From assembly GCF_001278755.1 (NCBI RefSeq), contig NZ_CP012601.1, positions 1,984,001 to 2,048,000 of the forward strand: a DNA stretch of 64,000 bases, read 5' to 3'. Source of the DNA: Bacillus sp. FJAT-22090 (GTDB lineage: Bacteria; Bacillota; Bacilli; Bacillales_A; Planococcaceae). Shown in pieces: positions 5,611 to 9,528 of the stretch (within the stretch, counting starts at the first letter, position 1; every line of letters starts with the position of its first letter). Position numbers and translations under genes: made by a program. The notes below the pieces were generated by a model that was not told the DNA's origin, ran no database searches, and was given only the letters and a program-made list of their open reading frames with translations.

Positions 5611-6108
5611 ATGAATGAATTATACTCTTTAATAACTCAAGTTACAGAAAATGCATCAGAGGTAGAAATAAACTTACTAAAAGAATTTTTAAAAGGTATA
5701 CAAAATAAACAACAAGAAAAAGCTCCTACCTATTTAAATGCAGTTTTTCATATGGATACTCAATATGAGGAAAATAAATGCATTGTAACTCTACCAATCA
5801 CTCCATTATCTTATAATAGTTTTGATATTCCACATGGTGGCGTAATTGCAACACTTGCAGATAATGCGATGGGTTTTCTCGTTAATAAAGATTTACGTTC
5901 CGAAGGAAAAGGTGCTGTAACAACAAATATGACGATCCATTATGTAAAAGCAGCAACAGAAAACACTTTAGTTGCTACTGCTACTTACTTACACAAAGGT
6001 CGCCAAACATTAGTTATGGAATGCACGGTAACACAACCTAATGGCAAAAAAATTGCTTATGCAACCGGATCATTTTTTGTTATTGATCCAGCTAACTCTT
6101 CAAAATAA
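5611..6108 (+). CDS. PaaI-family hotdog thioesterase
   Basis: A 165-aa single hotdog-fold protein with the PaaI-family signature IPHGGVIATLADNAMG (residues about 73-88), in which the HGG and the following D form the thioesterase active site. The C-terminal part shows the expected IHYVKAATENTLVATA beta strands. It probably hydrolyses acyl-CoA or aryl-acyl-CoA thioesters; the substrate is unknown. It is divergent from ylbF, and its last 52 bases overlap the 3' end of the convergent murE-type gene. Confidence 0.82.
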   Translation: MNELYSLITQVTENASEVEINLLKEFLKGIQNKQQEKAPTYLNAVFHMDTQYEENKCIVTLPITPLSYNSFDIPHGGVIATLADNAMGFLVNKDLRSEGKGAVTTNMTIHYVKAATENTLVATATYLHKGRQTLVMECTVTQPNGKKIAYATGSFFVIDPANSSK

Positions 6109-7520
6109 CTTTTCACTACTTCATGATCAGAAAAAGGGACTACGAGATCATTCACGATTTGCTCTTGTTCATGTCCCTTTCCTGCAATTAATACAATATC
6201 CCCTCTCGTTGCGATACTTAATGCTAATAATATTGCTTGTTTTCGGTCCATCTCTACGATGGCTTTATCTCTTTTCGTACCTTGTAAAATATCCGCGATA
6301 ATGTCAACAGGATTCTCATATCTAGGATTATCATTCGTTATAATAGCCTTTGTAGCATACTTAGTAGCTACTTCTCCCATCCCTCTTCTCTTTTGCCTGT
6401 CACGATTTCCACCACAGCCAAAAACAACATAAACTTCTTTTTTAGCATATGTTTTAATTGCACCTAAGCTAGCCTCTAGTGCATCCGGAGTATGTGCGTA
6501 ATCTATTAATACTTCGATTCCTTGTTCATTTTCAATCCTTTCTAATCTACCTTTTGGGAGCTTTACAGGTTTTAACTCTTCAATCGATATACCTAGAGCT
6601 TTCATAACTGCTATTGCTGCTGCTAGGTTCGACCCATTATAATATCCACTATTAGTCATCTCAGTATGCAATGCTTTTTTACCAACCAAAAATTTATACT
6701 TTATCTTTTCCTTTGTATAATCTACCTTTTGATAAATTACATCATTTTTTTGATTTTCTCCAAAACGTGTTACAGGTAAATAAGTCTTCTCTGCGATGGA
6801 TTTACACCATGCATCATCATCATTAATCACCAAATGCTTGGAAAGTAAAACAAGCAGTTCTTTCGATTTTTTATATGGAACCATTCCGCCATGGAACTCA
6901 ATATGATCTTTACCTATATTTAAAAATACACCTACATCAATTGGATAATTACACAATCGTTGATCTAGTAAACCTTGAGAAGATGCTTCCAAAACAATAT
7001 AATCTACTTTCTTCTCATAACAATACTTCACTACTTGAATAAAATCATAAAAAGGTAAAGTAGTATTGCTTCGTAAATAATGATCTAGTCTATTACCATT
7101 CTCGAATACACCTAGCGTTCCAATGACACAAACTGATTTTTTTTGTTGCCTCAATAGCTGTCCAATAAAGGATGCTACTGTAGTTTTACCATTTGTGCCA
7201 GTTATACCTATTGTTTTTATTTTACTACCATATAGTTCATATGTTAATGTTGATAGTTTTCTTTTAAAATGATGCATATCTGTAGGAATGATTATTTGTG
7301 GAACCATACAATCCGGTATAAAACACTCGGTTAGGATTGCAACAGCTCCTCGTCTTATCGCTTCATCTATAAAGATACGATTGTTCGTTTGAGAGACAAA
7401 AACATCTCCCACTGTTATTTGCTTTGAATGATCAATACACCTGTTTATTGAAACGTTTTGAAAATCACCAATAATCTCGTACTGTAATCCTTTTAATAAT
7501 TCTTTTAAAGGATAAATAAT
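6057..7520 (-). CDS. murE: UDP-MurNAc-tripeptide synthetase, meso-DAP-type MurE
   Basis: ATP-dependent ligase that adds the third amino acid to UDP-MurNAc-L-Ala-D-Glu. With the start used here the product is 487 aa, the normal MurE length. The Mur N-domain (SINRCIDHSKQITVGDVFV) is followed by the P-loop GTNGKTT at about 108-114, the central ligase motifs, and a C-terminal domain with DNPR at about 397-400 and GKGHE near 447. DNPR is the motif of meso-diaminopimelate-adding enzymes; lysine-adding enzymes differ there. No ATG, GTG or TTG is present in frame between the spacer and residue L5. An ATT at 7520, six bases after AGGGAG, is the best start, though 7517 or ATA 7523 are possible. It is divergent from an aspartokinase gene, and a mother-cell-type promoter lies in the spacer. 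Confidence 0.88.
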   Translation of the reverse strand: MIYPLKELLKGLQYEIIGDFQNVSINRCIDHSKQITVGDVFVSQTNNRIFIDEAIRRGAVAILTECFIPDCMVPQIIIPTDMHHFKRKLSTLTYELYGSKIKTIGITGTNGKTTVASFIGQLLRQQKKSVCVIGTLGVFENGNRLDHYLRSNTTLPFYDFIQVVKYCYEKKVDYIVLEASSQGLLDQRLCNYPIDVGVFLNIGKDHIEFHGGMVPYKKSKELLVLLSKHLVINDDDAWCKSIAEKTYLPVTRFGENQKNDVIYQKVDYTKEKIKYKFLVGKKALHTEMTNSGYYNGSNLAAAIAVMKALGISIEELKPVKLPKGRLERIENEQGIEVLIDYAHTPDALEASLGAIKTYAKKEVYVVFGCGGNRDRQKRRGMGEVATKYATKAIITNDNPRYENPVDIIADILQGTKRDKAIVEMDRKQAILLALSIATRGDIVLIAGKGHEQEQIVNDLVVPFSDHEVVKSYFEELAGSITKNDPVA

Positions 7521-7534
7521 TATCCACTCCCTAC

Positions 7535-7561
7535 ACCATTCTTGTATGTTCGCATAAAGTA
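7535..7561 (+). promoter_or_regulatory. Putative sigma-K-type promoter of the aspartokinase gene
   Basis: AC at 7535-7536 (in the context CACC), 16 bases, then GCATAAAGTA at 7552-7561, matching the sigma-K pattern AC-N16/17-CATAnnnTA. No convincing sigma-A promoter is seen in the same spacer. Confidence 0.45.
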
Positions 7562-7575
7562 AAATGAATTCCTTG

Positions 7576-7605
7576 TATCGTATGAACGGAGTGTTTAAAA
7601 TGTCA
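7576..7605 (-). promoter_or_regulatory. Putative sigma-E/sigma-K promoter of murE
   Basis: On the minus strand TGACATT (7605-7599), 14 bases, then CATACGAT (7584-7577). This resembles the sigma-E pattern KMATATT-N14/15-CATACAMT with 5/7 and 7/8 matches. The same bases read as AC-N17-CATACGATA fit sigma-K. The predicted start of transcription is about 50 bases before the ligase start. Confidence 0.45.
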
Positions 7606-7629
7606 CGAGTAAAGTTGATGAGGTTATGA
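7600..7629 (+). CDS. Nine-codon leader ORF coupled to the aspartokinase gene
   Basis: ATG at 7600 follows GGAGTG at six bases and encodes MSRVKLMRL. Its TGA overlaps the aspartokinase ATG (TTATGA at 7624-7629). The main gene has a poorly spaced ribosome site of its own (GATGAGG two to three bases from ATG), so the leader may deliver ribosomes by translational coupling. It is too short for any homology argument. Confidence 0.4.
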   Translation: MSRVKLMRL

Positions 7630-8360
7630 TTGTTCAGAAGTATGGTGGTGTTGCTATGCAGAATCATCAAAGTAGACAATTAGTTATATCACATATCAGA
7701 AAAGCTATTAGCAAACACCAGAAAGTGCTTGTTGTTGTTTCTGCCATGGGAAGAAGAGGTCAATATTATTCAACCGATACACTTTTAGATCTAATACCAA
7801 CATCTAATAATAATAGCGTGGAAACGGATTTACTATCTGCCTGTGGCGAATTAATCTCTGCATCTGTTTTGTGTGCAGAAATAAAAAAGGAAGGAATTCC
7901 TGCTACGATCCTATATGGAAAAAGTGCAGGTATAATTACAAATGAGGCATATGGTAATGCAGATATTTTATATGTAGAAACTAAAGAAGTAACTAATACG
8001 TTTAAGGATTATCCTTGCATTATAGTTCCAGGCTTCCAAGGTCTTTCGGAAAATCTTCAAACTTTTACTACATTAGGTAGAGGTGGGAGTGATTTAACAG
8101 CAGTCGTTTACGGGCATCATTTAAATGCAGATATTGTTGAATTTTACAAAAATGTTCCAGGTGTTATGACTTCCGATCCTTTTAAAAACGAATCAGTACA
8201 ATTAATTTCTACCATGTCATATGAGGAATTACAAAACATAATCATAGAGCCTGTTGAAATCATACAAAAAAGAGCAGCGAAATTTGCTGCTCTTCACAAA
8301 GTACCTTTGCACATACGTTCTTTATATGAAGAAAGAGATGGAACTTATGTTTTTCAATAA
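7626..8360 (+). CDS. Aspartate kinase catalytic domain without ACT domains
   Basis: Phosphorylates L-aspartate, the first step toward diaminopimelate, lysine and dipicolinate. The 244-aa protein contains the amino-acid-kinase core: KYGG near residue 5 (the usual KFGGTS is altered to KYGGVA), SACGEL, TLGRGGSDLTAV around 155-166 and VEFYKNVPGVMTSDP, ending soon after HKVPLHIRSLYEERDGT. Ordinary aspartokinases are 400-450 aa and carry two ACT domains for feedback inhibition; here the chain stops where they would begin, and the downstream convergent gene follows after three bases. The reading frame is intact, so this is a natural short form and not obviously a truncation. It is paired divergently with a DAP-type murE. 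Confidence 0.88.
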   Translation: MIVQKYGGVAMQNHQSRQLVISHIRKAISKHQKVLVVVSAMGRRGQYYSTDTLLDLIPTSNNNSVETDLLSACGELISASVLCAEIKKEGIPATILYGKSAGIITNEAYGNADILYVETKEVTNTFKDYPCIIVPGFQGLSENLQTFTTLGRGGSDLTAVVYGHHLNADIVEFYKNVPGVMTSDPFKNESVQLISTMSYEELQNIIIEPVEIIQKRAAKFAALHKVPLHIRSLYEERDGTYVFQ

Positions 8361-8363
8361 CTG

Positions 8364-9437
8364 TTATCTGTCTTCTTTTGGTATAGCTCTTTCAATAAAG
8401 TTTTGTGTGTAATAATTACCGTAAACCCCTACTCCAGTATGTGTATACCATTTTCCTAATATTGTATCTCGATGATCTTTCGAGTTTAACCATCCATTGA
8501 CTGCATCTCCTGCATCAAAATAAAAAGCTGCTGTATTTCCACCAGCTCTGTTAAAATCAATTGCTGATTCCTGTAATGTATCACTAAATTTAGGTACCTC
8601 AAAAGAATCGTTTTTTACAATATTGTTCTTTGCCATTTCTTCACTTTGTTGCCTTGCAATTTTTTGAAGATCTATATCAGATTCTAGAACTTTATAGCCA
8701 TGTCTCAGTCTAAACAAATTGGTGATTTCAACAATTTGTCGTTCATTTGCTCGGTCTACAGAAACTTGCAAATCAGATGGTGGAGTTGTAGATTCCACCA
8801 TTGACCCATTGTATAAAATATCATATGGTTTTTGTAAAAGAAGCGTTTCTGCATCAGAAAATCGAACAGCTTCTAATTGATTATCTTTCCCGTCTATATA
8901 TAACATTGCATATAAGTTCTCAAATGGAACTAAAATTCTATTTGTTATGTCTTCCTTATTTAAAGAGAACGTATATATATTGGAGTCAATGGTCATTGTT
9001 ATCTCAGATTGTACTATCGTAAAACGATAAATTTCCTCCAATGATTGACCAATATCATATGGTGTTACGTCAATCTTATTCCCGATAGCAAGAATCTGTG
9101 AAACTTTATCTTCTGATACACCAATCATTTGATAATTTGAAAAAGAAGAATTATATATCCACCAATCATATCCAAAAACAGAAGGTTCTACTCGATTCGG
9201 CTTTCCTAATAGTTTTACTACCTCGCTAGAAGATTGACCTATTAGAACTGAGATACCTGTATTTGGTCTTGTAAAGATATTGTTCGATTCCACTACCTCT
9301 GTTGTTTCTTGAGGAATAACCTGTCCTGAGTTCTTTGATCCTGTAATTAGCTCATTTTCTTTCACAGGATTATCCAAATATATAAATATCACTAGTACTA
9401 TAGCAATAAAAATTAAGATTCTAAATAGATTTTTCAT
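8364..9437 (-). CDS. ylbC: CAP-domain exported protein YlbC
   Basis: A 357-aa protein with an N-terminal membrane segment (residues about 5-22), a middle domain of the CAP-associated N-terminal type (LLGKPNRVEPSVFGYDWWIYN) and a C-terminal SCP/PR1 (CAP) domain of about 125 residues (ITNLFRLRHGYKVLESDIDLQKIARQ...). The CAP domain shows the conserved H-x-x-T style end KDHRDTILGKWYTHTGVGVY. The function of bacterial CAP proteins is uncertain; some are spore- or wall-associated. ATG 9437 follows GGAG at nine bases and excludes 25 unconserved residues. It converges on the aspartokinase gene. Confidence 0.88.
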   Translation of the reverse strand: MKNLFRILIFIAIVLVIFIYLDNPVKENELITGSKNSGQVIPQETTEVVESNNIFTRPNTGISVLIGQSSSEVVKLLGKPNRVEPSVFGYDWWIYNSSFSNYQMIGVSEDKVSQILAIGNKIDVTPYDIGQSLEEIYRFTIVQSEITMTIDSNIYTFSLNKEDITNRILVPFENLYAMLYIDGKDNQLEAVRFSDAETLLLQKPYDILYNGSMVESTTPPSDLQVSVDRANERQIVEITNLFRLRHGYKVLESDIDLQKIARQQSEEMAKNNIVKNDSFEVPKFSDTLQESAIDFNRAGGNTAAFYFDAGDAVNGWLNSKDHRDTILGKWYTHTGVGVYGNYYTQNFIERAIPKEDR

Positions 9438-9528
9438 CTTATATAACTCCTTACCAATTACTCCATTATCACTAGTATAACAAGCTTCTATAGAAATACA
9501 CAATGTTGTCATTGCAACATTTTCAAAT

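Follow-up and report, generated by a model that had tools for sequence, protein, structure and literature searches.

A divergent murE–aspartokinase pair of Psychrobacillus and related Planococcaceae: a candidate mother-cell module for spore-cortex precursor synthesis

The DNA analysed here, referred to as the window, is a stretch of 64,000 nucleotides from Bacillus sp. FJAT-22090 (C1:1984001-2048000 of a complete genome of 4.21 Mb), in which a gene for a MurE-type ligase and a gene for a short aspartokinase are arranged divergently. The host is a Psychrobacillus as judged by the named relatives of the kinase, of which the nearest 13 loci, at 66–83% identity, are 12 of Psychrobacillus and one recorded as 'Bacillus sp. 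FJAT-22090'. An initial annotation of the window had proposed that the two genes form a module for supplying and using diaminopimelate (DAP) in the sporulating mother cell. The ligase, which occupies an open frame of 540 residues at 6057-7679 on the minus strand, scores 405.7 bits against the NF001126 model (cut-off 373) and 395.2 bits against TIGR01085 (cut-off 257.3), and carries the motif ITNDNPRYENP, so that its description as a MurE with the DNPR motif is borne out. By its sequence, it would be a DAP-type enzyme, with DAP as its predicted substrate. It also contains the GTNGKTT P-loop (T106 to T112) and the invariant Mur lysine (K219), both in invariant columns of alignment A2. DNPR was found by pattern search in 70 of 71 named pairs, with L174 as the exception, and a contact of its arginine is described in PMC3829189. 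The gene lies outside the dcw cluster, as had been claimed, since spoVD directly precedes mraY in the host. The kinase, at 7626-8360 on the plus strand, has 244 residues and AA_kinase (PF00696, 111.2 bits) as its sole Pfam match, without ACT domains, in agreement with its annotation as a divergent, catalytic-only aspartokinase. MurE sequences are assigned below to classes A, A3, B and C, names which were coined in this analysis; the enzyme of the window is of class B.

The 540-residue frame is most likely too long. The start at 7679, which the initial annotation had adopted, gives way to an in-frame ATT near 7517, present in all 33 Psychrobacillus rows compared (the window, 13 named and 19 other loci, with overlapping species), where it is separated from a preceding GTGTAGG[GA]AG by 9 bases, or by 10 in two rows; in the window, this Shine-Dalgarno-type element, GTGTAGGGAG, occupies 7527-7536 (-). 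An in-frame TGA falls at, or one base past, the end of the element in seven of the 33 rows, and in these the ATT is followed by the first ATG, GTG, TTG or CTG at a distance of 7 to 10 codons. Two further Psychrobacillus rows have a GTG two codons ahead of the ATT, and the aligned start in Paenisporosarcina is ATG. Translation would most likely begin at the ATT at 7517-7515, giving a gene at 6057-7517 (-) and a protein of 486 residues. A conserved ATT start of this kind would likely escape automatic annotation.

Both motifs claimed for the spacer between the genes are present. On the MurE strand, TGACATT-N14-CATACGAT at 7605-7577 (-), which resembles a sigma-E promoter and also fits the sigma-K pattern AC-N17-CATANNNTA, is the sole mismatch-free place in the window, and three places are found when up to three mismatches are allowed (2.8 expected). 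On the kinase strand, the sigma-K-like AC-N16-CATAAAGTA occurs once, at 7535-7561 (+), and because 2.9 chance matches are expected in the window, its occurrence in one sequence proves nothing. The MurE-strand site was scored in 72 sequences against the window's own TGACATT-N14-CATACGAT, in a set interval relative to the kinase start, and all 72, including the 58 from outside Psychrobacillus, reached at least 12 of 15 (minimum 12, mean 13.9), as compared with a mean of 7.8 and a fraction of 0.0003 at 12 or more in dinucleotide shuffles, and a mean of 7.7 on the opposite strand. The exact -10 element CATACGAT is found in 51 of the 72, and the column information amounts to 1.57 bits in the -35 element, 1.79 in the -10 element and 0.61 in the spacer, values which are inflated because the anchor was picked for best fit. 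Scored against the consensus sequences of the sigma factors, the MurE strand of Psychrobacillus reaches 12 of 15 for sigma-E (shuffles 10.48) and 8 of 8 for sigma-K (shuffles 6.1). A chance match was considered for this strand, and its conservation across genera speaks against it; a sigma-E-type promoter appears to be conserved here, and the gene would depend on the corresponding sigma factor. All 14 Psychrobacillus sequences scored match the kinase-strand pattern in full, and the averages of other genera are 6.7 to 7.0 of 8 (shuffles 5.7 to 6.2), which is weaker evidence for a promoter and could, taken alone, reflect chance, so that of the two mother-cell patterns first proposed it is the one on the MurE strand that holds across genera. 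No clear copy of the motif was seen by eye in the region upstream of spoIVA in the host.

The occurrence of the pair was surveyed in 200 genomes from 19 genera of the family, drawn evenly from a larger group and searched with MurE, kinase, class A3, spoIVA and class C queries, as well as in named kinase loci, which are the best 80 of 186 matches. Among the numbered genera, g1 is Psychrobacillus, g3 Sporosarcina, g4 Bhargavaea, g5 Viridibacillus, g11 Paenisporosarcina and g17 Rummeliibacillus, as deduced from coordinates shared between genomes and named loci (G139 = L136, G102 = L151, G066 = L154, G005 = L175, G047 = L149 and G051 = L155). A spoIVA hit over the cut-off was obtained in 149 of the 200 genomes, and every one of these has a class B murE. 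The total of 150 class B genomes, made up of 142 with listed matches (E 5e-70 or better) together with seven Sporosarcina and G020, which were read at the locus, is completed by G098, in which the spoIVA hit falls under the cut-off. Of the 51 genomes without spoIVA over the cut-off, class B is therefore present in one; broken remnants were found in three, absence at the locus in 42, and absence by score only in five. The score search considered seven MurE candidates per genome and missed seven true class B genes in Sporosarcina; absence by score is thus unsafe, and the locus was therefore read in 32 more non-sporing genomes. In kinase-free genera, class B was assigned by score, and nine of these genomes were examined further, by reading of the locus or from their place in the tree.

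The short kinase occurs in 73 of the 200 genomes (g1 19/19, g3 30/30, g4 8/8, g5 3/3, g11 8/8, g17 4/4, and G020), and the conserved pairing that the initial annotation had suggested looking for is found in all of them, the divergent arrangement with class B following from coordinates in 65 and from reading of the locus in eight. The 80 named loci include 72 short kinases, with a divergent murE in all 71 that have the upstream side present; the 72nd stands at a contig end. The kinase is absent from g10, g13, g14, g15, g18 and g19, that is, from 77 genomes, all of which have class B. Bhargavaea, a genus described as non-sporing, has the whole pair (L154, L160, L165, L167, L169, L199 and L204), and spoIVA exceeds the cut-off in 8 of 8 g4 genomes.

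Loci in non-sporing genomes were reached via a conserved neighbour gene. In the window, the pair is followed on the kinase side by a gene for a CAP/YkwD-like protein (8364-9512, -), a conserved neighbour, and on the MurE side by a hotdog thioesterase gene (5611-6108, +), a neighbour in many, but not all, of the genomes compared; both are context outside the module. Among the 47 genomes in which spoIVA gave no hit at all, 42 have a readable locus, and MurE and kinase are both absent from every one of these loci, which belong to six genera (3 in g6, 29 in g7, 2 in g8, 3 in g9, 2 in g12 and 3 in g16). The 42 consist of 10 and of the 32 mentioned above, in the reading of which four of four sporing positive controls were found; five g9 genomes yielded no neighbour gene, and absence there is by score alone. 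Of the 32 loci, 31 have the CAP gene at a distance of 22-311 bases from the next conserved neighbour, and in the remaining one, that of G027, no CAP gene was found. Three g2 genomes (G001, G038 and G053), whose spoIVA is decayed and scores below the cut-off, have lost the shared 5' region of the pair, so that L322, L323 and L324 show the divergent genes cut through this region; only 3' parts of MurE are left in these genomes, and what is left of the kinase is 3' parts in two of them and, in the other, a trace of 25 residues (E 0.001). In G020, also of g2 (spoIVA 470 bits), both genes are open frames, strongly diverged. A whole class B copy is thus found in none of the 45 readable non-sporing or decayed loci, G098 and the five unread g9 genomes apart.

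The short kinase matches the 405-residue PRK08210 model over residues 3-245, where its own sequence ends, and it scores under the aspartokinase cut-offs (257.3 versus 474 for NF006068, and 144 versus 208.7 for TIGR00657). The two C-terminal ACT domains are absent, the length being 242-256 residues in 72 of 72 short loci as against 399-413 in the eight full-length proteins among the 80 named loci, which are Bacillaceae-type; no longer protein of the short type was listed by the kinase search in any of the 200 family genomes. In the kinase tree, the short kinases fall into a single clade (100/100), which joins DapG (88/91) through a long branch (2.46), and several inner forks are unsettled. DapG is the aspartokinase of the spoVFA-spoVFB-asd-dapG-dapA operon. 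The short kinase shares with this closest clade the segment SAMGRxGDxYATDTLL, but differs in its length, in the lack of ACT domains, in its position divergent from murE and in changes at conserved residues. In the host spoVF operon, asd is directly followed by dapA, with no dapG between them, and in the two Bacillaceae loci read, of Robertmurraya and Neobacillus, a full-length dapG stands between asd and dapA. The host has three aspartokinases, of which the other two are full-length; it also has three dapA-family genes over the cut-off (C1:1771289, 1032498 and 3479669). At reference columns identical across seven DapG, LysC and AKIII sequences, 18 of 18 short kinases keep K5, G7, G8, S39, T50, D51, E75, R152, G153, G154, S155 and D156. 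The predicted structure has a pLDDT of 89.1, and its nearest solved folds are aspartokinases, with a TMq of 0.87 for the first. The short kinase would probably be active.

The vegetative function would fall to other MurE classes. Three murE genes of the host exceed the family cut-off, and none of them lies in the dcw cluster: besides the class B gene, there is one of class C (L002, C1:751821-753122, motif TFDDLN) and one of class A3 (L003, C1:3324283-3325644, motif SRSHV). A search for a second murE in the dcw cluster, which the initial annotation had suggested, therefore gave two further genes without DNPR, neither of them at the expected place. In the L282-L303 set, the longest frame of the 1.5 kb preceding mraY shows no murE pattern in 20 of 20 family genomes, as compared with its presence there in two of two Bacillaceae. 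The second MurE of other genera, class A, has the motif TTDDPR in the five loci read and in five named genomes, and a prfC-like gene is visible by eye beside it in four of the five loci; DDPR also occurs in the solved MurE 4bub, which is named LD-lysine ligase. The murE of Staphylococcus aureus presumably stands beside a prfC-like gene as well. Its lysine-adding enzyme has DNPA, according to PMC3829189, in contrast to TTDDPR in class A and DNPR in class B.

Psychrobacillus shows no TTDDPR-class gene: the host has MurEs of three other classes, and in P. insolitus B and A3 are the sole ones to exceed the cut-off. Class A3 (L003 and L086-L109), which lacks DNPR, GKGHE and DYAHT, is found among the 200 genomes in all 19 Psychrobacillus (84-100% identity), in all four g2 genomes and in G181, and this divergent class is likely to include the ornithine-adding vegetative MurE, for which it is our candidate. 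In G181, a fragmented g10 genome (L109), A3 stands at 60% and the highest score for the class C query is at the low level found in Psychrobacillus; contamination and a second ornithine lineage are the candidate explanations. Class C, whose member in the host (L002) by eye adjoins a DNA polymerase IV-like gene, was rejected as the vegetative MurE, being whole in eight and partial in two of the 19 Psychrobacillus genomes, and it is patchy across the whole family. The window MurE was likewise rejected for this role, given the other MurEs in the genome and its separate clade. A tree of 45 MurE sequences has the 18 class B rows in one clade (support 96/93), and the class A of other genera (9), A3 (6), C (6) and the Bacillaceae dcw enzymes (5) each form one group; the tree is unrooted and does not settle whether class B descends from a lost dcw copy, and the placement of G020 is unsure because its row is very long. 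The Bacillaceae dcw MurE (for example of Neobacillus and Robertmurraya, motif TSDNPRSEDP) likewise exceeds the family cut-off and has DAP as its presumed substrate, but class B differs from it as a separate, faster-evolving clade with its own locus, which tracks sporulation; the dcw position lacks murE in the 20 family genomes examined for it.

On this evidence, the pair is quite probably a mother-cell module for spore-cortex precursor synthesis, a reading with good support for the MurE part and moderate support for the kinase part. In the proposed mechanism, the third residue of the stem peptide would be lysine or ornithine in the vegetative wall, and on sporulation class B MurE would be switched on from the sigma-E-like promoter, adding meso-DAP to UDP-MurNAc-L-Ala-D-Glu and so leading to DAP-type cortex peptidoglycan. 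The divergent aspartokinase would derive from a DapG whose ACT domains were lost and whose gene was transferred out of the spoVF operon to the murE locus, which suggests domain loss and relocation as a route to an ACT-less aspartokinase; free of feedback, it would drive aspartate towards DAP (and dipicolinate) at the time when the cell needs both. The substrate, the sigma factors, the role in flux, the direction of the kinase's move and the composition of the cortex are predictions of this scheme.

That a lysine-walled spore-former builds a DAP cortex was reportedly demonstrated by biochemical means about half a century ago, and Linnett and Tipper reportedly described in the 1970s a sporulation-induced DAP-adding ligase activity in Bacillus sphaericus. 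The step proposed for class B is the same one, supply of the DAP precursor for the cortex in a lysine-walled spore-former, but the B. sphaericus ligase is known as an activity and not as a gene, whereas class B is proposed as the gene; the literature searched gave no gene assignment for it. The literature consulted included PMC11376405, PMC5962572, PMC9781867 and PMC4015370, one of which lists among its references a paper by Guinand, Michel and Tipper with a title on a DAP peptidoglycan hydrolase in sporulating B. sphaericus; MurE, DapG, aspartokinase and diaminopimel- are not mentioned in the main text of PMC3533761. Like the initial annotation, we found no earlier description of the murE–short-aspartokinase pair in the literature searched, most subscription papers being outside its reach.

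Several observations weigh against the mother-cell reading. The DNPR motif alone is undecisive because its arginine is also found in the TTDDPR class, and the class B motif is DNSR, DNAR and DNCR in L129, L130 and L131, one locus each in three genera, which are also without the kinase. The sigma-E consensus is matched at only 12 of 15 positions in Psychrobacillus, and genera with MurE alone fit the promoter poorly, L045, L048 and L050 having CATATGATA at a fitting distance (-10 at 7 of 8, -35 at 4 of 7) and the scan of L128-L132 giving no convincing site. The kinase is lacking in 77 of the 149 genomes of spore-forming genera, and all 18 short kinases compared depart from the reference at T9, S10, T175, R186 and H214, which makes catalytic activity unsure. 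Of the spore DAP module first envisaged, the MurE half tracks sporulation; the kinase is not obligatory, and, given the loss of conserved residues, the supply of DAP by it is something that we infer.

These last points are also what would favour MurE as the only spore enzyme of the pair, with the short kinase acting as a regulator or partner of MurE or phosphorylating another target. The five altered residues are identical in DapG, LysC and AKIII, the branch leading to the short clade is long, the scores fall under the aspartokinase cut-offs, and roughly half of the genomes in spore-forming genera do without the gene. We consider this account unlikely, though not lightly dismissed, as K5, G7, G8, S39, T50, D51, E75, R152 and GGSD are retained throughout, aspartokinases are the nearest folds to the model, and the kinase is kept as a whole frame across seven named genera. 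It is improbable that growing cells also use class B MurE, as a backup enzyme or under stress, its link to sporulation being a by-product of genome reduction in non-sporing genera. Many genes do differ between sporing and non-sporing genera, the distribution is not phylogenetically independent, and the sigma-A consensus on the MurE strand scores slightly above shuffles in two genera (Psychrobacillus 9.07 versus 8.34, and Paenisporosarcina 9.20 versus 8.35, of 12), which also counts against the mother-cell reading; within g2, however, both frames are open in G020, which has spoIVA, and broken in the three genomes that lack it, most non-sporing loci have the CAP gene directly abutting the next conserved neighbour, and the MurE promoter fits sigma-E and sigma-K better than sigma-A. 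Slightly less probable still is a role of class B MurE in the forespore or at germination, in the germ-cell wall, with which the distribution is compatible and to which modest sigma-G scores above shuffles on the MurE strand of several genera would point (Bhargavaea 9.71 versus 8.22 of 13); no group scored gave sigma-F values above those of shuffles, and in the majority of groups the signal for sigma-K and sigma-E is more marked than that for sigma-G.

Extending the mother-cell reading to the family as a whole, we tentatively suggest, at somewhat short of even chances, a developmental wall switch in the Planococcaceae, in which a sporulation-only MurE, often together with a feedback-free aspartokinase, would swap lysine (in Psychrobacillus, ornithine added by A3) for DAP in the mother cell, and in which the AUU start would help to silence the DAP ligase during growth of Psychrobacillus. 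The locus would provide a likely gene, a conserved promoter and a natural experiment of loss for a change in wall chemistry known since the 1970s. The separation of DAP, lysine and probable ornithine MurE classes within one family would also aid the prediction of wall chemotype from sequence. Among the loci compared, L195, from a record titled Arthrobacter beigongshangensis, has a Sporosarcina-like locus, and its label looks wrong.

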